Source: Paludibacteraceae bacterium (GTDB taxonomy: Bacteria > Bacteroidota > Bacteroidia > Bacteroidales > Paludibacteraceae). Taken from it: a stretch of 37,435 bases of DNA. Position numbers and translations under genes: made by a program. Where the stretch lies: NCBI GenBank assembly GCA_024399575.1, contig JAKSNT010000013.1:1-37435 (forward strand). Direction: 5' to 3'. The first letter of the stretch is position 1. Each line of letters opens with the position of its first letter. Shown here one piece after another: positions 2,107-33,629 of the stretch. Below the pieces are notes generated by a model that made no database searches, was not told the origin of the DNA, and worked only from the letters and a program-made list of their open reading frames with translations.

Positions 2107-3309
2107 TCACCTCAGTTTCGCAAGGCCTCCTTCTGCCGTTTCGCGGTATAGAGACGGGATGTCGTGACCAGTCTCCTTCATGACCCTGACTACCCTATCG
2201 AACGACACACGGTGCATACCATCGGAAAGCATAGAATAGAAATTGACATCGAAAGCACGTGCTGCCGCGATGGCGTTACGCTCAATGCATGGTATCTGGA
2301 CAAGTCCGCACATAGGGTCGCAGGTGAGTCCGAGGTGATGCTCAAGTCCCATCTCGGCGGCATACTCTATCTGGCGAAGAGTTCCGCCAAAGAGTTGGTT
2401 TGCAGCGGCAGCAGCCATGGCGCAGGCAACACCCACCTCGCCCTGGCAACCTACTTCAGCCCCTGAAATAGAAGCATTGGTCCGCACGACGTTGGCAAAG
2501 AGTCCAGCAGTGGCGAGCGCCCTGAGTATCCGCTCCTGCGAGAATTTGCGCGATAGATACAAATGGTAGAGCACGGCAGGCAGCACAGCCGACGAACCGC
2601 ATGTTGGAGCCGTTGCTACTATTCCTCCGGCTGCATTCTCCTCGGCAGTGGCAAGTGCGTATGCGTAAATCCTGGCACGAGAGGCGAGATTGCCAACGTG
2701 CGAATCAGCCTTCACATAGTATTTCGTAGCCTTACGCGCCACCTTCAGTTCGCCGGGCAGCACGCCTTCTGTCTCAAGCCCACGCTGTATGGCGGCACAC
2801 ATTGTGTCCCAGACCTTCGAGAGGTGGTCCCAGATGCCAGGACCCTCACACAACTCGACATATTCCCAGAAGGTACGCCCCTCGCGATACCCCCAATCGA
2901 CAATGTCGGAAATATACCTCATATCGTAGAGACGGTTTTTCTCGCTCTCGTCCATGCCATTCCAATAGAGTGCACCGCCACCTACGCTATAGACCTCCCA
3001 ATCGCTCAGTCTCGAGCCATCACGACCGAAAGCCTCAAAACGCATTCCGTTGGGATGGCAAGGCAAAGTCTGCTCGGGGCACCAGATTATCCGACTCTCG
3101 CAACGAGGTGTGAGAACTTCGAGAACCGCCTGATCGGTGAGGTGACCCTTACCAGTAGAAGCAAGTGAACCATAGAGGGTTGCATCGATACGCGAGAGTT
3201 CCATACCCTCTACACGTTCGAGGAACCGCTGGGCAGCAAAACGAGGCCCCATGGTGTGGGAAGAGGATGGTCCCTTCCCTATCTTGAATATTGTCTTGAT
3301 TGTTTCCAT
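2107..3309 (-). CDS. sdaA: L-serine ammonia-lyase (iron-sulfur L-serine dehydratase)
   Basis: It converts L-serine to pyruvate and ammonia with a [4Fe-4S] cluster. The single chain of 400 residues carries the beta domain first (KIGKGPSSSHTMGP near 10-22) and then the alpha domain (TAPTCGSSAVLP near 233-244). The three cluster cysteines are C288 (GCQGEVG), C330 (TCDPMCG) and C341 (PCIERN). Their spacing of 42 and 11 residues is the same as in characterised bacterial enzymes. The chain is shorter than the 450-residue E. coli enzyme. Its ATG overlaps the umuC stop by one base (TAATG), suggesting translational coupling. Oxygen-labile Fe-S serine dehydratase fits an anaerobe. Identification is secure. 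Confidence 0.96.
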   Translation of the reverse strand: METIKTIFKIGKGPSSSHTMGPRFAAQRFLERVEGMELSRIDATLYGSLASTGKGHLTDQAVLEVLTPRCESRIIWCPEQTLPCHPNGMRFEAFGRDGSRLSDWEVYSVGGGALYWNGMDESEKNRLYDMRYISDIVDWGYREGRTFWEYVELCEGPGIWDHLSKVWDTMCAAIQRGLETEGVLPGELKVARKATKYYVKADSHVGNLASRARIYAYALATAEENAAGGIVATAPTCGSSAVLPAVLYHLYLSRKFSQERILRALATAGLFANVVRTNASISGAEVGCQGEVGVACAMAAAAANQLFGGTLRQIEYAAEMGLEHHLGLTCDPMCGLVQIPCIERNAIAAARAFDVNFYSMLSDGMHRVSFDRVVRVMKETGHDIPSLYRETAEGGLAKLR

Positions 3310-4574
3310 TATACTTTTACAGTCATTATTTCATTGATAGATGTGGTATATCGAGGACTAAGATGGTCGAGACGGAAATTGTCGTTGCGCACCTCGGCTG
3401 ACGACTGGACGGCATAGCGTAGATGATTTCTTCCGAATTTATGGTTCACTGCATCGAAAGCCACCTGTATGCGGCCATCGCGTTCACGGTCACGTTCGTC
3501 GAAGAAGGAACGCTGGACGGCATTACCGCCAGTTATCTGCGAAAGGATTATTCCTGCCCGCTTGTAGGGAACGCCAAAACGATACTCCCTGCGAAAGGCG
3601 GCAAGCATATATCCAAGCATCTCCTGCACATTAGCGGTAGGCTCGGGCATACAGACGAGCGAGGAGAGATAGTGACTGGGAGTGTCGGTTCTGAAGCGAG
3701 AAGACATAGCAAAGACTGTCAACTGCTGACAAACAGAGCGTTGACGACGGAGTTTATCGCAACACGAGACAAGAAAATCAGCCAGCAAGCTCTCTATGGT
3801 CCTGCGGTCGTCAATACCGGCAGCAAAAGTTCGCGAGACAGTAATCGACTTTTTCTCAGGCAGGTCAGAGAGCTCGATGCAGTCAACTCCACGGAGTTCC
3901 TGCCATGTGGCAATGCCAGGACGCGAAAACATGTTGGCAGCCCACTGCTCGTCGTGACGGGCAAGGTCGAGGGCAGTACGCACTCCAGCCATGCGCATCT
4001 TTTCGAAATTCTTTCTGCCTATGCCCCAGACATCCTCGATGGGAAAAAGCGAAAGAGCCTTCTCCCTCTGTTCGTCAGTCAGGATAGAGCATACACCATT
4101 ATATCCAGAATATTTCTTAGCAAACTTCGAAGCCACCTTGGCGAGCGTCTTTGTGCCGGCAATGCCTATCGAGACAGGAACGCCAACGCCTGAGCGTATC
4201 TCGCGGACAATTGACTCGCAATAAGGCTTGCATTCGTCGGGCGAGATATGGTCGAGACGCATAAACGCTTCGTCGATAGAATATTGCTGCAGCGATTCAG
4301 TATGCCGTGCAAGCAACGACATGATACGCGACGAGATGTCGCCATAAAGCGAGAAATTGGTCGAAAAGCAGGTGATATGCTCACGCTCGATGATGTCGCG
4401 AACCTTAAACAGAGGAGTACCCATGCCAATGCCAAGAGCTTTCACCTCGTTGGAACGGGCAATCACACAGCCGTCGTTGCCAGACATCACGAGCACAGGC
4501 TTACCCTCCAGGTCAGGACGGAAAACACGCTCGCACGAAACGAAAAAGTTATTGCAATCAACTAATGCATACAT
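3309..4574 (-). CDS. umuC: DNA polymerase V catalytic subunit UmuC (Y-family)
   Basis: This is a translesion polymerase that copies damaged templates with UmuD'. The 421 residues are close to the E. coli length. Catalytic acidic residues are D6 in YALVDCNNFFVSCE and D101/E102 in YSIDEAF. The GNDGCVIARSNEVKALGI stretch is characteristic of UmuC rather than DinB. A helix-hairpin-helix region (VWGIGRKNFEKM) and the UmuC C-terminal region follow. The gene overlaps umuD by 13 bases and touches sdaA by one base, so it is part of the same transcript. No umuC-specific promoter is possible inside these overlaps except within umuD. Confidence 0.95.
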   Translation of the reverse strand: MYALVDCNNFFVSCERVFRPDLEGKPVLVMSGNDGCVIARSNEVKALGIGMGTPLFKVRDIIEREHITCFSTNFSLYGDISSRIMSLLARHTESLQQYSIDEAFMRLDHISPDECKPYCESIVREIRSGVGVPVSIGIAGTKTLAKVASKFAKKYSGYNGVCSILTDEQREKALSLFPIEDVWGIGRKNFEKMRMAGVRTALDLARHDEQWAANMFSRPGIATWQELRGVDCIELSDLPEKKSITVSRTFAAGIDDRRTIESLLADFLVSCCDKLRRQRSVCQQLTVFAMSSRFRTDTPSHYLSSLVCMPEPTANVQEMLGYMLAAFRREYRFGVPYKRAGIILSQITGGNAVQRSFFDERDRERDGRIQVAFDAVNHKFGRNHLRYAVQSSAEVRNDNFRLDHLSPRYTTSINEIMTVKV

Positions 4575-4996
4575 ACACGGTGGACATTATAAGTCACTAC
4601 ACCCCAAATGACGAAAGCATTCTCTCTTGAGACATGAAAAGGCTTGAACATATCGTTGTGAGGAACAAGCCACGCACCATCGCCCGAAGGGTCAAGACGG
4701 TACTCCTTCAACGTGAATTCACCATCAATCGAGGCAACCACGAAATCGCCATTGCGAGGCTCGATGCTGCGGTCAATGACAAGGATGTCGTGGTCGAAAA
4801 TCCCTGCATCGACCATCGAGTCGCCCGAGACACGGGCATAGAAAGTGGTTTCGGGATGAGCATTCATCTCGCGCACAAGGTCGATACGCTCGCCAGCATA
4901 GTCGGCAGCGGGAGAAGGAAACCCAGCATGCAAGCCATCGGCAAGACCGAGTTCGAGTCCTTCAGGCTCGGCATTTGTGATGTCAGAAATTTTCAA
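4562..4996 (-). CDS. umuD: UmuD, S24-family self-cleaving mutagenesis protein
   Basis: UmuD is cleaved with RecA help to UmuD', the partner of UmuC in DNA polymerase V. The 144-residue protein has the cleavage dipeptide A24-G25, the nucleophile S60 in VSGDSM, and K97 in FTLKEY. These are the same positions as in E. coli UmuD. The start codon is TTG. An in-frame stop lies only two codons upstream, and the TTG gives the family-standard spacing, so no ATG start is available. The TTG overlaps the trmB stop by two bases. Coupling to trmB is unusual for an SOS gene. I did not find a convincing SOS operator, but the LexA box of this lineage is not known to me. Confidence 0.94.
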   Translation of the reverse strand: MKISDITNAEPEGLELGLADGLHAGFPSPAADYAGERIDLVREMNAHPETTFYARVSGDSMVDAGIFDHDILVIDRSIEPRNGDFVVASIDGEFTLKEYRLDPSGDGAWLVPHNDMFKPFHVSRENAFVIWGVVTYNVHRVCMH

Positions 4997-5739
4997 GCCT
5001 TAGTCTTTATCGTATAATCATCCTTTTCGATTTCAACCTCAGGCTCGACCAGTTGCGAAGAGTGAGGAAGACAGAAACGGATGAATTTTATTGTCTTGCC
5101 CATCGAACGCCAATGCTGCTCGTAGAAGGTTTGTATCTCGGTCAGCGAGCGTTCGGAATCGTCAAGTTCCATGGAATAGAGGTCGGGGGTAGCCATATCG
5201 ACAGGCAATCCGCTCGCCTCAGCCATCAGGCAGGTATAAGTATATAGGAAGTTGCTGTCGGTCTTCAGACTGATGCGTCCATTGTCGCGAAGAATCTTCT
5301 TGTAGAGATTCATGAAAAGAGTCGAGGTGAGACGCTTGTTCACCTTTTTCATCTGAGGGTCGGCAAAGGTAATCCATATCTCGTCAACCTCGTCTTCGCC
5401 AAAGAAATAAGGTATTGCCTCGATGGCGGTACGAAGAAAGGCACAATTGCCGAGACAGGCTTTGTGTGCCTCGGTAGCACCTGTCCACATACGGGCACCC
5501 TTGATATCGACACCTATGAAATTGCGGTCAGGGAACCTGCGTGCAAGTCCAACCGCATATTCTCCCTTGCCACAGCCAAGTTCGAGAACAATAGGGTTTT
5601 CGTTCCTGAAACAGGATTCACGCCAATGCCCACGCATTTCGAAATGCGCACCATGGTTCAGGATATCGTTGTAGGAGAGCTGGAACACATTAGGCAACTC
5701 CTCCATCTCGGCAAACTTGCGCAACTTATTTTTCCCCAT
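4993..5739 (-). CDS. trmB: tRNA (guanine-N7)-methyltransferase
   Basis: It methylates G46 in the variable loop of tRNAs using S-adenosylmethionine. The 248 residues contain the SAM motif VLELGCGKGEYAVGLA at about 51-66 and the family motif ITFADPQMKKVNKRLTS. The second motif is the Bacteroidetes version of the FPDPWPKKRH region. The opening MGKNKLRKFAEMEELPNV is typical of Bacteroidetes TrmB and supports the ATG at 5739. The gene overlaps gldH by 14 bases upstream and umuD by two to three bases downstream. Confidence 0.96.
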   Translation of the reverse strand: MGKNKLRKFAEMEELPNVFQLSYNDILNHGAHFEMRGHWRESCFRNENPIVLELGCGKGEYAVGLARRFPDRNFIGVDIKGARMWTGATEAHKACLGNCAFLRTAIEAIPYFFGEDEVDEIWITFADPQMKKVNKRLTSTLFMNLYKKILRDNGRISLKTDSNFLYTYTCLMAEASGLPVDMATPDLYSMELDDSERSLTEIQTFYEQHWRSMGKTIKFIRFCLPHSSQLVEPEVEIEKDDYTIKTKA

Positions 5740-6187
5740 TCTCGACGATTTTCAATCCTACACTATAAATACCAGGCAACGAGTCGGTACGCATGCCATG
5801 CTGAATGTACCAGATATATTTCCCTGGCTGACGGAAATGCACAGAACCCTCGTAAGGGTAAGTGGCAGAATAGATTGAACCTATGCCTGAACCTATCCAG
5901 TTGCCATATTCATCGGCAAGCATAAGTTGGACAGTGTCGTTGCGGAAAGACATGTCAGGATAGACCTTCTTCACGAAAAGCCAAAGGTTCTGGAACTGAT
6001 AGTCAGGCGCATTGCGAACCTGAATACCAATGCTGTAAGTAGGGACGGTATCAGTGATTTCAAATTCAAAACGTGCTATCGAATCAGAAGTCCAGCCATC
6101 CTTGTCAACACTGACCACATCCTCGTAGAAAGCATTACACGAAACCAAAAGAAATGCGGCAAAAATAGGAAAAATCAGACGTTTCAT
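5726..6187 (-). CDS. gldH: GldH-family lipoprotein
   Basis: The 153-residue protein has a signal peptide ending in the lipobox LVSC, so it should be lipid-anchored at Cys16. The remainder is a beta-rich domain (FEFEITDTVPTYSIGIQVRNA, LWLFVKKVYPDMSF, GKYIWYIQHGMR) matching GldH. GldH was first defined in Flavobacterium gliding, but it is kept in non-motile Bacteroidales, where its role is not clear. Its start overlaps the ricT stop (ATGA) and its end overlaps trmB by 14 bases, so it is firmly in the operon. Confidence 0.9.
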   Translation of the reverse strand: MKRLIFPIFAAFLLVSCNAFYEDVVSVDKDGWTSDSIARFEFEITDTVPTYSIGIQVRNAPDYQFQNLWLFVKKVYPDMSFRNDTVQLMLADEYGNWIGSGIGSIYSATYPYEGSVHFRQPGKYIWYIQHGMRTDSLPGIYSVGLKIVENGEK

Positions 6188-7326
6188 TGCTGCGGTTTTG
6201 GATTGTTGTTGTTCTGCTTGCGTTTGCGGTTATTACGCTTGCGACCGTTGCTGCCCATCTTATGGTCAAAACGCGTGAGGCTATCCTGCCCGACCACATT
6301 GTGATAGTCGATTGTCTTCTCGGGAGATACGCTCTTCTCGACAAGCGAGACAGGTTTCTCGCCACGACGGTTCATTTCGATCACCTCAAGGGCACGTTCG
6401 ACCGAAATCACCTGGAGATTAGCCATCACGTCAGGCGACGAGGAATAGGTCAACTGACGTTTGAAAGTGTCGGACTTGCAGAGATAGAAAGTGCCGTCGG
6501 CAGTTTCGAGATGGATATCCTTGCGAGGGAAATCACGCTGGGCATCAACATACATTGCAGCCTCGAAATTGACGCAGCATTTGATTTTAGCACACTGCCC
6601 AGCCAGTTTCAAAGGGTTTGTGCTCAAGTCCTGACAACGTGCAGAGTTGGTCGATACACTGTTGAAATTGCTCATCCAGGTAGTGCAACAGAGCTCACGA
6701 CCGCACGGGCCAATGCCGCCTATACGGCCAGCCTCCTGACGTGCACCAATCTGACGCATCTCGACACGTACGGAAAACTCCTGCGCAAAAACCTTGATAA
6801 GCTGACGAAAATCGACACGTTCGTCGGCAATGTAATAGAATATCGCCTTGCTGCCATCACCCTGATATTCAACATCACCAATCTTCATGGAGAGTTCCAT
6901 ATCCTTGGCAATCTGGCGGGCACGAATCATCGTCGCCTGCTCCTTTGCCTTCGACTCCTCATATTTCTCCATGTCAGTCTGGCGAGCCTTGCGATAGACA
7001 CGACGAACCTCGTAACGGTCCATATTGATTTTCGATTTCTTGATCTGGTCAAGCACGAGACGACCCATCAGAGTCACGACACCCACATCATGACCAGGGT
7101 TAGACTCGACGACTACGACATCGCCCTTTTCAATCTGAATGTGATTGCTGTTGATGAAATATCCCTTGCGGGTATTCTTGAATTGCACTTCAACCAGATC
7201 GGTATCAAGCTTGGTCTCAGGTATATCAGCAAGCCAGTCAACCACAGGCAACTGCTGCTTGGTATTCCCATTGAAGCCCTTCGCACCAGGATTGGAAGCA
7301 TGGTTGTTCAAAGTAAATTCGTCCAT
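6184..7326 (-). CDS. ricT: PSP1-domain protein, RicT/YaaT family
   Basis: The 380-residue protein contains the PSP1 domain. Conserved cysteines are C208, C213 and C214 (GPCGRELCC), C231, C245, and C250/C251 (QCAKIKCC). In Bacillus RicT forms an Fe-S complex with RicA and RicF that influences RNA processing. The role in Bacteroidetes is not established. The last 25 residues are a low-complexity basic and Asn/Gln tail (GRKRNNRKRKQ...), suggestive of nucleic acid binding. It follows holB after five bases, the same adjacency as the yaaT-holB pairing in Firmicutes. Confidence 0.92.
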   Translation of the reverse strand: MDEFTLNNHASNPGAKGFNGNTKQQLPVVDWLADIPETKLDTDLVEVQFKNTRKGYFINSNHIQIEKGDVVVVESNPGHDVGVVTLMGRLVLDQIKKSKINMDRYEVRRVYRKARQTDMEKYEESKAKEQATMIRARQIAKDMELSMKIGDVEYQGDGSKAIFYYIADERVDFRQLIKVFAQEFSVRVEMRQIGARQEAGRIGGIGPCGRELCCTTWMSNFNSVSTNSARCQDLSTNPLKLAGQCAKIKCCVNFEAAMYVDAQRDFPRKDIHLETADGTFYLCKSDTFKRQLTYSSSPDVMANLQVISVERALEVIEMNRRGEKPVSLVEKSVSPEKTIDYHNVVGQDSLTRFDHKMGSNGRKRNNRKRKQNNNNPKPQQ

Positions 7327-7331
7327 TTGAT

Positions 7332-8459
7332 TCAGTGTTTTTTTAAGTGTATATAAAGTTTGATGAGAGTATGAAAAATGACTATTTCGGAATTTGTGTT
7401 CTGCGCTATCTGACTCTCAGCCAGCGACAGTTCCGAAGATATCTTCAAGACATTCCTTTCAGTGATGAAAGCCGAGAAACGGGACGAGAACTGAATCTCG
7501 TCAGCATTCATGTACGAAAGGTCGGACATACCGACATGACAGATGAAATTCTCGCGGATAAGCCTTTGCGAATAGCGAAGGAAAGCGAGCTGTGCATTAC
7601 GTCCGAGACGTGCAAACTCCTCACTGAAGGTGCGGATTTCGATTGTGTTGAACTTAAACGAGGTACGCATCATCCGTTTGAAAAGCTCGAAGTTCAGGCT
7701 ATCCTCATCGGTCGTCTCTATCAGACGGAGCAACTCGCCCCAGCATCCACGAGACGAGCGGACAAGATAATTCATCTGGTCATCACTTATGTCGGTATAT
7801 CTGGCACGGATTCCGGCTCGCATCTCGTCCATTCCGAGAGGTGGAAGCTCGAAATTCCGACAGCGACTGCGAATGGTCAGCAGAACCTGCTCAGGGTGGT
7901 CGCTGACAAGTATGAAGACTGTATCCAAGGGAGGCTCCTCAAGAATCTTGAGCAGACGATTGGCACACGCCACATGCATCAGTTCCGGCTGCCAGATAAT
8001 CATAACCTTATGGTCGCCCTGATAAGGTTTGAGAGATATCTTACGTATGATTTCGTCACCCTCTTCGGTATAAATCTGACCAATTTTGGATTCACCTGTG
8101 CGGGCAAACCATTGTTCAATCGTGAGGAAAGGATTCTGGAGTACGGATTTGCGGAAATCTGCCAGCACGTCGTCGCATATCTGGATTTTCGAAGTCTTGT
8201 TCTGTACTATCGGAAAGACAAAATGCAAATCAGGATGGGTGAGATTCTGCAACTGGATACACGACCGGCACTTGCCACACGAGTCCTCTTCCCCACGGTC
8301 AGAACACATGATATACCGAGCTATGGCAATAGCCATCGGAAGTTTACCAACACCCTGATTTCCAGATAAAAGAATAGCATGCGGAATACGATTCTGCATT
8401 ACCAGCTGCTTCAAGATACCCTTCAGGTCGCCATAGCCGATTACATCACGGAAAAACAT
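7332..8459 (-). CDS. holB: DNA polymerase III delta' subunit (clamp-loader AAA+)
   Basis: The 375-residue protein is a clamp-loader subunit. It has the P-loop GNQGVGKL at 33-40, the zinc module C52-x8-C61-x2-C64-x2-C67, and the SRC-like motif TIRSRCRNFELPPL. In the P-loop, residue 40 is Leu where Thr/Ser normally follows the Lys. This suggests weak or no ATP hydrolysis, as is known for delta' proteins. It is the first gene of the minus-strand run, and its ATG at 8459 lies about 27 bases from a consensus promoter element. Confidence 0.93.
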   Translation of the reverse strand: MFFRDVIGYGDLKGILKQLVMQNRIPHAILLSGNQGVGKLPMAIAIARYIMCSDRGEEDSCGKCRSCIQLQNLTHPDLHFVFPIVQNKTSKIQICDDVLADFRKSVLQNPFLTIEQWFARTGESKIGQIYTEEGDEIIRKISLKPYQGDHKVMIIWQPELMHVACANRLLKILEEPPLDTVFILVSDHPEQVLLTIRSRCRNFELPPLGMDEMRAGIRARYTDISDDQMNYLVRSSRGCWGELLRLIETTDEDSLNFELFKRMMRTSFKFNTIEIRTFSEEFARLGRNAQLAFLRYSQRLIRENFICHVGMSDLSYMNADEIQFSSRFSAFITERNVLKISSELSLAESQIAQNTNSEIVIFHTLIKLYIHLKKH

Positions 8460-20053: not shown

Positions 20054-21307
20054 TCAATCGTTGATTGCTGCAATACCAGGCAACACCTTACCCTCAATTG
20101 CTTCGAGAAGAGCACCTCCACCAGTAGAAACGTAGCTCACCTTGTCAGCAAGCCCGAACTTGTTGATACAAGCAACCGAGTCGCCACCACCAACGAGCGA
20201 GTAGGCACCGAGCTGAGTTGCGTCAGCCACAGCCTGAGCAAGAGCCTTGGAACCATGTGCAAAATTCTCCATCTCGAATACACCTGCAGGACCATTCCAA
20301 AGGACTGTCTTTGAACTCTTGATGACATCAGCAAAGAGACGCTCGCTCATGTCAGCAATATCCATACCAATCCATCCATTAGGTACATTATGTATTTCTG
20401 TAGTCTGTCGGTGTGCGTTGTTGTCGAACTTGTCGGCAATTACATTGTCAACAGGAAGATACATCTTCACACCATTCTTCTTAGCCTTCTCAAGGAGTTC
20501 GAGTGAGAGATCCATCTTGTCATCCTCGTGAAGCGAGTCTCCAATCATACCACCCTGAGCCTTGATGAATGTATAGGTCATTGCACCTACGATTATGAGA
20601 TTGTCAACCTTGGTCAGAAGGTTCTCTATGATTTCAATCTTGGTAGATACCTTCGAACCACCCATGATGGCAGTAAAAGGACGTGCAGGATTAGCCATTA
20701 CAGTCTCGACAGCCTTAACCTCCTTCTCCATGAGATAGCCAAACATCTTGTTGTCCTTGTCGAACGAAGATGCCATGACAGCAGTAGAGGCATGAGCACG
20801 GTGTGCAGTACCGAAAGCATCGTTCACATAGCAGTCAGCATACGAAGCGAGGTGTTTTGCAAACTCCTTCTGAGCAGCCTTGACAACCTTCTTGGCAGCA
20901 GCCTTCTCCTCGTCGGAAGCATCGTCAGCCAAACCACGTGGCTTGCCCTCTTCCTCAGCATAAAAACGGAGATTCTCAAGCAACACTGCCTCACCATCCT
21001 TGAGCGAAGCACAAATATCGTCAGCCTTGTTACAATCCTCAGCAAACTTCACCTCAACGCCAAGCAATTCAGACACTCGGGGAAGAATGCACTTAAGCGA
21101 ATATTTAGGATCAGGGTTTTTCTTAGGACGACCCATGTGCGAAGCCATAATCAGACGACCACCATTCTCGATGATATGCTTCAACGTAGGCATGGCAGCA
21201 CGGATACGTGTGTCGTCAGTAATAACGAAATTTTCGTCAACAGGGACATTGAAGTCAACGCGGACGAAGGCTTTCTTACCTTTGAAATTGTAATTGTCAA
21301 TAGTCAT
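20054..21307 (-). CDS. pgk: Phosphoglycerate kinase
   Basis: The enzyme transfers phosphate between 1,3-bisphosphoglycerate and ADP in glycolysis. The 417-residue chain has RVDFNVP near the start, the substrate motif HMGRP, the conserved [11 protein letters not shown], the hinge/nucleotide motif ...NGPAGVFE and the terminal [16 protein letters not shown]. It begins 27 bases downstream of the HisG-like gene and is followed after three bases by the aldehyde dehydrogenase. No strong promoter was seen in the 27-base gap, so it probably uses the promoter of the HisG-like gene or one within that gene. Confidence 0.98.
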
Positions 21308-21334: not shown

Positions 21335-22147
21335 TCAAGGAATGTACGAGGAGATACTGGATATATATATATCAGATGCGCCAAGCGATTTGAAATGGTC
21401 AATTACATCCCAGAACCAACTTTCGTCTGCAACAAATTCAAATTTCGCTTGTCCTGAAAAATCCGAGCGAGAAATAAAGGGATACGCAGAACGTATTTCC
21501 TTTTCCACAATATCGGCTGACCCAACAGGAACAAACATATTCACCAGTTTCTTGTCACGGGCAGAAAGAGCAGCATCAAGACGGAAGAGAAAATCATCAG
21601 CAATTACCTGATCAGAAGCAGAGAAATTGCCATACGCTGCAATGACACAATCAGAATGGGAAACAGTTTCAACCGTCTTCATGTTCAGAATTGAGCCATC
21701 GAATGGAGTCCTCATACAATAAGCATCAGCAAGAGGATATTCGTTTGAAACACCCGAGAAAAAGAATGGCATTACCTTTGCACGGACTGAGTGTTCGCAA
21801 AAAAATGCAGATAACAAGTCTGGATAAGGAGTAGCCACCACTTTGTCCTTAAACCATTCCATGCCCCTGTATTTTGCCTCAGAAGGAACCATAAGGACAA
21901 TATCGCCACTATCTATATTCAGATGACGCACCACATGCAAATCAGGAATGGCAAAACGAGACATCCAATCGTATATTGCAAAAGCAGGAATTTTAGGCAA
22001 TAAAGAAGAGGAAATCAATTCCATTGGAAAATTCAACGAGCAGACAAGAGATGAAGAGTCGAAAGAATCGAACCTAATGCCTGCGCCTTCAAATAGTCTC
22101 AGAACCTGAAAACGGGAAATACCTGGATCAATGATGACCTTCAACAT
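21335..22147 (-). CDS. Divergent HisG-fold protein (ATP phosphoribosyltransferase-like), probably not a HisG enzyme
   Basis: The 270-residue protein aligns by eye with long-form HisG along its second two thirds. KVVATPYPDLLSAFF matches the RIATxYPxLxxxYF strand, PLADAYC matches the GLADAIC region, LSARDKKLVNMFVP matches the helix-strand before the third domain, and WFWDVIDHFKSLGASDIYI matches the ACT-like C-terminal domain. The catalytic part is altered: the GSVExAP motif reads SGVSNEYP, and the PRPP-binding D-x(3)-TG-x-T loop reads RTPFDGSI. It therefore probably lacks transferase activity. It is the first gene before pgk. Family relationship is inferred from memory of HisG sequences. Confidence 0.6.
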   Translation of the reverse strand: MLKVIIDPGISRFQVLRLFEGAGIRFDSFDSSSLVCSLNFPMELISSSLLPKIPAFAIYDWMSRFAIPDLHVVRHLNIDSGDIVLMVPSEAKYRGMEWFKDKVVATPYPDLLSAFFCEHSVRAKVMPFFFSGVSNEYPLADAYCMRTPFDGSILNMKTVETVSHSDCVIAAYGNFSASDQVIADDFLFRLDAALSARDKKLVNMFVPVGSADIVEKEIRSAYPFISRSDFSGQAKFEFVADESWFWDVIDHFKSLGASDIYISSISSYIP

Positions 22148-22165: not shown

Positions 22166-22195
22166 CAAAGTTACTAAAAATATTTGTATTGCAAA
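22166..22195 (-). promoter_or_regulatory. Promoter for the HisG-like/pgk/aldehyde dehydrogenase run
   Basis: On the minus strand TAACTTTG at 22166-22173 follows TTTG at 22192-22195 with an 18-base spacer, slightly short for the pattern. It lies 19 bases before the ATG at 22147. Confidence 0.6.
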
Positions 22196-22211: not shown

Positions 22212-22245
22212 AAAAAAAGCGTGATTTCCATTATGGAAATCACGC
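22212..22245 (-). terminator. Rho-independent terminator of the small acidic lipoprotein gene
   Basis: A perfect 12-base stem (GCGTGATTTCCA at 22219-22230, TGGAAATCACGC at 22234-22245) with a three-base loop is followed on the minus strand by a run of seven T. It lies 30 bases after the stop of the gene at 22275-22466 and separates it from the HisG-like run. Confidence 0.88.
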
Positions 22246-22274: not shown

Positions 22275-22466
22275 TTACTCAGCTACTGGAGCTTCCTCAG
22301 CTGGAACTTCCTCAGCAACCTCTTCTACAACTGGCTCTTCTACAACTGGCTCTTCAACTACCTCGATAGCCTCATCAGTTGCCTCTTCAGTTGTCTCCTC
22401 GTTGTTACCACAAGATGCGAATGCTACAGCAGTAGCAACAGCCATAAACAAAACTAACTTTTTCAT
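22275..22466 (-). CDS. Small acidic repeat lipoprotein, 63 residues
   Basis: The signal peptide (MKKLVLFMAVATAVAFASC) ends in lipobox FASC, so the mature protein starts at Cys19. The remaining 44 residues are low complexity: almost only Glu, Val, Ala, Pro and Thr, with the repeat EEPVVEEPVVEE. Two adjacent 15-base copies in the DNA (about 22322-22352) encode the repeat. The gene has its own promoter-like element and a strong terminator, so it is probably monocistronic and well expressed. Function is unknown. Similar acidic mini-lipoproteins occur in Bacteroidales, but I know of no assigned role. Confidence 0.85.
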   Translation of the reverse strand: MKKLVLFMAVATAVAFASCGNNEETTEEATDEAIEVVEEPVVEEPVVEEVAEEVPAEEAPVAE

Positions 22467-29218: not shown

Positions 29219-30349
29219 ATGCTGAACAGAACTACAATAGGAGTGTTTGGTCCGACCAATGCCGGAAAATCGACTTTGGTAAACATGCTGACAGGACAGA
29301 ATACAAGCATCACATCTCCAATGGCAGGCACGACGACCGACCCTGTCAAGAAGAGTATGGAAATAAACGGAATAGGTCCCTGCGTATTCATCGACACACC
29401 AGGGTTTGATGACGATACTGCATTGGGTACACAACGTGTGACAAGAGCCAAAGAGATACTCAGAGGGACTGACATAGCCATCATAGTGTTGCCATCTGAC
29501 GAGGAAGTCTCGCCGAGGACAAAACAATGGATTGAACTTGTAAAGAGCCATGCAGCACGCACAATCATGGTTACAAACGATTTCGGCAATCACAAGGCGC
29601 ACGATGAAAGCATCATGATCAACGCCCTGACGGGCGAGAACAGAGAAGAATTGCTCTTGGCATTAGGTCACATCAAGGAACGCATTGCCGAGGAGAGAAC
29701 GATAGTAACCCATCTGACGAAACCTGGAAACAAGGTGCTGCTCGTCATGCCTCAGGACAAACAGGCTCCTCAGGGACGACTCATTCTGCCACAGGTTCAG
29801 ACTATCCGCGAACTTTTGGACCATGGGTGCACGGCTGTGTGCTGTACGCCTGAAAACTATGTTGAAAATCTCAACATCAAGCCAGATCTGATAATCACCG
29901 ACTCGCAGGCTTTCGATTTTGTATATAAGAATAAACCTGAAGGGGTGAAGCTGACATCGTTCTCCGTGCTCATGGCACAATGGAAAGGAGATATTGAGGC
30001 ATTTGCCGAAGGTGCAAAGGCCTTTGCAAAGTTAAACGGCAAGAGCAGGATACTCATTGCCGAGGCTTGCACTCATGCCCCTCTTTCTGAAGACATAGGA
30101 CGAGAAAAGATTCCTGCACTCATCCGCAAGACCATCGACCCTGCTATACAGTTCGACATTGTGGCAGGCAACGACTGGACAAAGAATATTGAAAAGTACG
30201 ACCTCGTGATACATTGCGGAGCCTGCATGATAAACAGGCGCGAGATGCTGTCGAGAATAGAGGCTGCAAGAAAGGCAGGCGTGCCTATCACGAATTATGG
30301 GATAACGATAGCCTATTTCACAAGGATTTTGGACAAGATAGTATATTGA
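29219..30349 (+). CDS. hydF: [FeFe]-hydrogenase H-cluster maturation GTPase HydF
   Basis: HydF is the scaffold that receives the 2Fe subcluster from HydE and HydG and passes it to the hydrogenase. The 376 residues begin with a GTPase domain (P-loop GPTNAGKST at 11-19, G3 DTPG at 59-62). They end in the cluster domain with C284 and H286 (ACTHAP) and H332, C333 and C336 (HCGAC), matching CxH-x(~46)-HCxxC. The G4 position reads VTNDFG instead of NKxD. The gene is separated from hydE, hydG and any hydrogenase gene, none of which is in the window, and it sits between rimM and an outer-membrane protein gene. Confidence 0.94.
   Translation: MLNRTTIGVFGPTNAGKSTLVNMLTGQNTSITSPMAGTTTDPVKKSMEINGIGPCVFIDTPGFDDDTALGTQRVTRAKEILRGTDIAIIVLPSDEEVSPRTKQWIELVKSHAARTIMVTNDFGNHKAHDESIMINALTGENREELLLALGHIKERIAEERTIVTHLTKPGNKVLLVMPQDKQAPQGRLILPQVQTIRELLDHGCTAVCCTPENYVENLNIKPDLIITDSQAFDFVYKNKPEGVKLTSFSVLMAQWKGDIEAFAEGAKAFAKLNGKSRILIAEACTHAPLSEDIGREKIPALIRKTIDPAIQFDIVAGNDWTKNIEKYDLVIHCGACMINRREMLSRIEAARKAGVPITNYGITIAYFTRILDKIVY

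Positions 30350-33554: not shown

Positions 33555-33629
<75 letters not shown>

Follow-up and report, generated by a model that had tools for sequence, protein, structure and literature searches.

The window, that is the whole 37,435-nucleotide stretch of DNA from a gut bacterium of the Paludibacteraceae analysed in this work, encodes a protein which, judged by sequence and profile comparisons, is a full-length homologue of HisG (ATP phosphoribosyltransferase), related to it beyond chance. The protein (called HisG' below, for a HisG-derived protein with a degenerate active site; Table 1) is under purifying selection, and we consider it quite probable that, taken as a whole, it is a HisG-derived pseudoenzyme, most likely with a non-catalytic binding role. 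Its lineage has most likely lost histidine biosynthesis, as indicated by searches that covered HisG, HisD and HisA/HisF.

Table 1. Position and strand of HisG', its neighbours and other features of the window.
Feature	Position	Strand	Basis
HisG' (HisG-derived protein, degenerate active site), 270 aa	21335..22147	(-)	ORF with ATG start, sequence searches
pgk, phosphoglycerate kinase, 27 bases downstream of HisG'	20054..21307	(-)	Pfam PGK, 497 bits
Small acidic lipoprotein-like ORF, 63 aa (MKKLVLFMAVATAVAFASCG...)	22275..22466	(-)	'lipoprotein' by eye (signal + Cys)
Hairpin and T-run, terminator-like, after the lipoprotein ORF	22212..22245	(-)	predicted by reading the sequence
Promoter-like TTTG-18-TAACTTTG before HisG'	22166..22195	(-)	predicted by reading the sequence
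holB-PSP1 gene-gldH-trmB-like cluster, about 13 kb from HisG'	4993..8459	(-)	PSP1 gene by eye
UmuC/UmuD-like pair	3309..4996	(-)	by eye
HydF-like, [FeFe]-hydrogenase maturation GTPase	29219..30349	(+)	by eye
tRNA gene	33555..33626	(+)	Rfam

Homology to HisG

HisG was the sole significant relative of the window protein in sequence searches. In a phmmer search it matched the PDB chains 7dah (1e-12), 4yb5 (2e-12) and 1h3d (2e-11), and a profile built from the window protein and a relative in genome G116 with 75% identity to it was aligned by hhalign to 20 canonical HisG sequences with a probability of 99.8 and an E-value of 5e-28, residues 1-267 facing residues 1-280. Among the PDB entries for HisG, 1h3d and 1q1k are the E. 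coli, 4yb5 the C. jejuni, and 1nh7 and 5lht the M. tuberculosis enzyme. Scores against the family models were low. Pfam HisG (PF01634; 3e-5) reached 24.4 bits against a gathering score of 25.5 and Pfam HisG_C (PF08029; 4e-4) 20.8 bits against 23.5 with hmmscan, TIGR00070 gave 23.7 bits, under the curated 75.75, and TIGR03455, the model of the C-terminal part of HisG, gave 35 bits (1.2e-8), under the curated 40.05. PF01634 is a borderline case, the genome profile search placing the window protein just over the cut-off (25.5 with neighbours); the C-terminal regulatory domain was aligned in full by hhalign. The original prediction, made from the DNA sequence, of a HisG-fold protein with a degenerate PRPP- and ATP-binding site is thus borne out at the level of sequence, the homology being significant in profile searches and extending over the full length, and the motifs being replaced as described below.

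Orphan HisG copies and the missing histidine pathway

The assembly to which the window belongs is 1.66 Mb long and 86% complete. A genome profile search found no second HisG in it, its one match being the window protein, and a profile search for HisD gave no match; the HisA/HisF family was represented by a single match of 24 bits. The earlier remark that no other his gene is nearby can therefore be extended to the whole assembly, at its 86% completeness, for HisG, HisD and a strong HisA/HisF, and no separate, intact hisG turned up in it.

Pfam HisG matched in 143 of the 200 genomes of the family. The scores separated 127 canonical copies (156-180 bits) from sixteen low ones (24-109 bits). One of the latter, in G026, scores low because it is truncated (a 138-residue frame), and its genome has HisD. 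The other low copies are divergent and belong to 15 genomes of the genera designated g1, g17, g20 and g30, none of which gave a HisD match in the profile search; we refer to them as orphan copies. In g1, which includes the window's genome, HisG' is present in 7 of 9 genomes. HisA/HisF was searched in 22 genomes: the four histidine-making controls had two matches each, at 238-281 bits, and nothing above 38.5 bits was found in the other 18, which include all 15 orphan genomes. As an absence test PF00977 is noisy, 17 of the 18 genomes without his genes matching it weakly, so we relied solely on the interval that separates 38.5 from 238 bits.

The genomes are drafts, and metagenome-assembled genomes (MAGs) may miss genes. 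We read four genomes with canonical HisG and no HisD match (G039, G075, G112 and G175; 55, 89, 80 and 87% complete) as incomplete assemblies. HisD with no HisG match occurred in G010, G059, G077 and G132 of the family sample. Two of these, from genus g32, contain divergent HisD-like proteins (G059 C10:34418-35509 and G077 C13:59100-60191) scoring about 251 bits, compared with about 547-589 for nearly all full-length matches; genus g32 had no HisG match in its three genomes among those listed.

In an order-wide draw of 393 genomes, in which few members of the family were listed, HisG and HisD were each matched in 189. Comparing the two lists by eye left five genomes with HisG and no HisD, namely the window's own, G212, G254, G407 and G475. 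G212 and G254 were rejected as orphans, since their HisG scores like a canonical copy (182 and 189 bits) and lies near the contig end on the hisD side, as were G407 and G475, where the gene is cut by the contig end. The low matches in G216, G573 and G326 are partial copies in genomes with HisD. Outside the family nothing resembling HisG' was found in this draw. The six kin loci with names, from which the window's own record was perhaps left out, come from Paludibacteraceae MAGs (water buffalo cecum, roe deer cecum and horse feces), an uncultured Bacteroidales MAG and Candidatus Aphodosoma intestinipullorum. In the titles and the beginnings of abstracts of the open-access literature we found no description of a hisG retained in Bacteroidales lacking the his genes, and the main text of a paper on his genes in Bacteroidota (PMC8305728) contains none of the words 'auxotroph', 'pgk' and 'Paludibacter'.

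Active-site and histidine-site residues

Ninety-nine near-invariant columns were defined on 34 canonical HisG sequences. The window protein keeps 33 of them and the G116 protein 34, the five other g1 copies 58-66, g17 50, g30 43 and g20 30-43, counts that vary with the alignment. None of the 15 orphan copies keeps any of the ten columns E22, R49, D50, N70, R91, S116, G139, S158, Y213 and G232 (G139 belongs to the GSVE motif, S158 to the PRPP loop), which suggests that catalysis was probably lost once. Seven are kept in all 15 (F41, P42, Y102, K111, T115, E172 and W259).

The original prediction held that the GSVExAP and TGxT motifs are replaced in the window protein. The replacements are real, although their precise register varies with the alignment, and the changed positions are more numerous than first noted. 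GSVE lies opposite FS-G in the hhalign alignment or FFSG in the other one, and SSGSTL opposite FDGSIL. Of the PRPP loop (DxxSSGxTL) and GSVE, D155, S158, T162, G139, V141 and E142 are replaced or gapped in both alignments; the state of S140 and G160 is alignment-dependent, and in the hhalign register Gly160 is possibly kept in the window protein, not in that of G116. Further losses are Arg11, Arg49, Asn70, Cys90, Arg91 and Ser116, and about 11 residues are missing from the GIVGEN region. R11 is replaced by Ser and R49 by Leu; R11 is lost in the window/G116 pair, g17, g20 and g30, whereas the remaining five g1 copies have it. Judged by motif and chain offset, R11 is probably the equivalent of Arg32 in P. 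arcticus, whose change to Ala is reported to impair catalysis 25-fold (PMC9734150), and R49 of the RDDDIP motif is, by the same reasoning, likely to correspond to Arg73, the arginine of short-form HisG described as forming a salt bridge with the gamma-phosphate of ATP (PMC10795190).

One alternative is that the active site was rebuilt and that HisG', as a phosphoribosyl or nucleotide transferase, now acts on a different substrate. In g17 the PRPP loop is largely kept (DLVITGSTL), the five other g1 copies keep Asp155 and Gly160 in addition to Arg11, and Y102, K111 and T115 are among the residues common to all orphan copies. The window pair, however, has none of Arg11, Asp155 and Ser158, the universal losses include R49, R91, G139 and S158, and the only replacement seen that comes near to being common is S116 to P (14 of 15), thus we regard a new enzymatic activity as unlikely.

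A histidine-like ligand had also been proposed. In the M. tuberculosis enzyme histidine is described as being held by Asp218, Thr238 and the backbone of Ala273 (PMC5415358), which, with the chain number taken as the native number plus two, align with the canonical columns N217, T237 and G272. Both the N217 and the T237 column contain Phe in the window protein and in G116; of the 15 orphan copies, 3 retain N217 and 1 retains T237. Because the positions of both histidine-holding side chains, Asp218 and Thr238, are Phe in the window protein, the comparison does not support reading it as a histidine sensor, and the proposed ligand is not upheld. Another change, of D216, is reported to abolish inhibition by histidine (PMC5545217); its column (215) contains no acidic residue in the 34 canonical copies, being mostly Leu, Ile or Met.

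Phylogeny

In a maximum-likelihood tree of the 15 orphan and 34 canonical HisG sequences the orphans formed one clade (support 99/93), which was sister to the canonical HisG of genera g12 and g25 (100/95). The joint tree carries some warnings: long branches join, the window pair and G086 have odd composition, and three outgroup rows fall on the wrong side. When each group was placed separately, g17, g20 and the five other g1 copies all went to g12/g25, the window pair fell beside g31 with no support and g30 did not settle. Since their lone placement is unsupported, the single origin of the window pair and g30 leans on synteny and the joint tree. Most simply, catalysis would have been lost once, in the common ancestor of the g1, g17, g20 and g30 orphan copies.

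Selection

All 15 orphan copies are open frames. Five pairs of HisG' gave a dN/dS ratio by the Nei-Gojobori method, and two further pairs were saturated at silent sites. The ratio was 0.02 for G044/G124, 0.045 for G044/G083, 0.04 for G108/G066, 0.06 for G057/G030 and 0.18 (bootstrap range 0.12-0.26) for the window and G116. Open frames together with ratios of 0.02-0.18 mean that HisG' is a selected protein. In the same five pairs pgk gave 0.007-0.04. Between the window and G116 the other window genes gave 0.01-0.13 by Nei-Gojobori, two more being saturated, and one other window gene reaches 0.18 by YN00. In this pair the ratio was 0.11 over canonical residues 174-283 versus 0.24 over the rest, and was lower there in 98% of 300 bootstraps; this shift of constraint was unseen in three other pairs, in two of which the C-terminal domain was the less constrained part.

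These data bear on the question whether HisG' is a slowly decaying relic, a hisG that merely happened to survive its pathway and is now disappearing. HisG' is absent from at least three genomes of the orphan-bearing genera (G014, 99% complete, where pgk directly follows the lipoprotein gene; G097, 90%; G020, 94%), and in the window/G116 pair its ratio is higher than that of pgk (0.014) and of the other window genes mentioned above. But the frames of all 15 copies have stayed open over long branches, and the low ratios of the four other pairs (G044 is a member of two of them) speak against decay, which we therefore consider unlikely.

Gene order

In both genomes of the histidine-making genus g12 that we saw, the order is holB-PSP1 gene-gldH-trmB-small acidic lipoprotein-hisG-hisD-pgk (Pfam names were assigned for one of the two loci). 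Both g30 genomes have the same run with HisG' in the place of hisG and with hisD missing. The core lipoprotein-HisG'-pgk is found in the window and in 5 of the 6 other orphan-bearing g1 genomes; no lipoprotein ORF was found upstream of HisG' in G083. HisG' and pgk are adjacent in all seven orphan-bearing g1 genomes and both g30 genomes seen, that is, on the same strand in 9 of the 15 orphan genomes, with gaps of about 25-90 bases. In g17 the lipoprotein gene precedes HisG' and pgk is on another contig, and in g20 neither lipoprotein nor pgk was found beside HisG', pgk again being on another contig. No new neighbour is common to all four orphan genera.

The promoter-like element before HisG' resembles the Bacteroidetes promoter consensus. 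At the gathering threshold Rfam found one tRNA in the window and nothing near HisG', and PADLOC gave no match. The window also contains a cluster like the holB-PSP1 gene-gldH-trmB run which precedes hisG in g12 (Table 1). In g17 and in two g1 genomes queuosine genes lie beside the lipoprotein and HisG' (L036 9807-12153, L037 11236-12776, L039 7869-9085 and L038 7746-9104), queC and queF being assigned by Pfam for L036, queD and queE by eye.

HisG' does stand before pgk, as had been noted, and a survey of this adjacency holds for g1 and g30, not for g17 and g20. The position is best read as a fossil of the ancestral lipoprotein-hisG-hisD-pgk order, from which hisD has been deleted. Read in this way the adjacency is no sign of joint function, and the functional tie with pgk that had been suggested is not supported. 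HisG' as a partner or regulator of phosphoglycerate kinase, a reading taken from the gene order in the 9 genomes, is very unlikely: both g12 genomes have the same order with hisD in between, pgk lies elsewhere in 2 g17 and 4 g20 orphan genomes, and G014 and G097 have pgk and no HisG'. The HisG of Salmonella has been reported to bind histidyl-tRNA. Of the 9 orphan genomes with a queF match, 5 (G108, G066, G046, G017 and G049) carry this gene no more than 5 kb from HisG', which suggests a role of HisG' in queuosine or tRNA-His metabolism. We consider such a role very unlikely as well, since queF had no match in 6 of the 15 orphan genomes, the window's included, is 48-60 kb away in two g30 genomes and is on another contig in G100 and G086.

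Discussion

A pseudoenzyme keeps the homology to its parent, has lost the active site and is under purifying selection. HisG' is like pseudoenzymes in general in these respects, and differs in that other steps of the parent pathway are missing and no live parental copy was found. With long-form HisG (PF01634 plus PF08029) it shares homology over the full length, and it is the positional orthologue of the true hisG of g12. It differs from long-form HisG in that the window protein has lost residues at both the ATP/PRPP and the histidine site and has a stretch near the GIVGEN loop deleted, and in that its assembly has neither HisD nor a strong HisA/HisF match. Another comparison is offered by HisZ, a catalytically inactive HisRS paralogue which, according to PMC10795190, regulates short-form HisG. 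In both cases a catalytically inactive relative of an enzyme would have been put to non-catalytic use in the same metabolic field; HisZ, however, has another ancestor and acts on a live HisG, whereas the window's assembly has no second HisG.

The pseudoenzyme reading can be put as a series of steps. HisG' would descend directly, and in the same place, from a long-form hisG that was part of a lipoprotein-hisG-hisD-pgk order. Histidine biosynthesis would have been lost from the lineage, and HisG would have lost residues for the binding of ATP and PRPP, in the simplest case a single time, in the ancestor shared by the orphans. The protein would then have been kept as a pseudoenzyme, HisG-like in build and making no PR-ATP. 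Either the former interdomain cleft or the C-terminal regulatory domain may bind a partner or a small molecule, and the protein may relay this binding by changing its shape, in the way HisG responds to histidine. Stronger constraint on the C-terminal part in the window/G116 pair makes this part the better guess for the working surface in that pair.

Of the regulatory or sensing role on a retained fold that was originally predicted, the part that stands is a selected protein, kept by one HisD-less clade, and probably non-enzymatic because the PRPP/ATP site is degenerate and yet the gene has been retained; the histidine-like ligand is not supported, and a nucleotide or another ligand may be bound. 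Any particular ligand is clearly less probable than the pseudoenzyme reading as a whole. Tentatively, and with somewhat less than even confidence, we propose from these sequences a new pseudoenzyme family, HisG without catalysis after loss of its pathway, present in at least four genera and having a new ligand or partner, possibly specific to the genus.

The results also contain a warning for annotation. All 143 HisG matches in the 200 family genomes, the 15 divergent ones included, were counted as being over the Pfam cut-off, so HisG' could be scored as the first step of histidine synthesis in genomes which seem to be without the rest of it. For the biology of the family, HisG' is probably a clear case of an enzyme that outlived its pathway. 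The original order of the genes, the absence of hisD, the shared loss of active-site residues and, later, the disappearance of the gene itself can all be read in living genomes, and the case lets one ask what a metabolic enzyme did besides its reaction.
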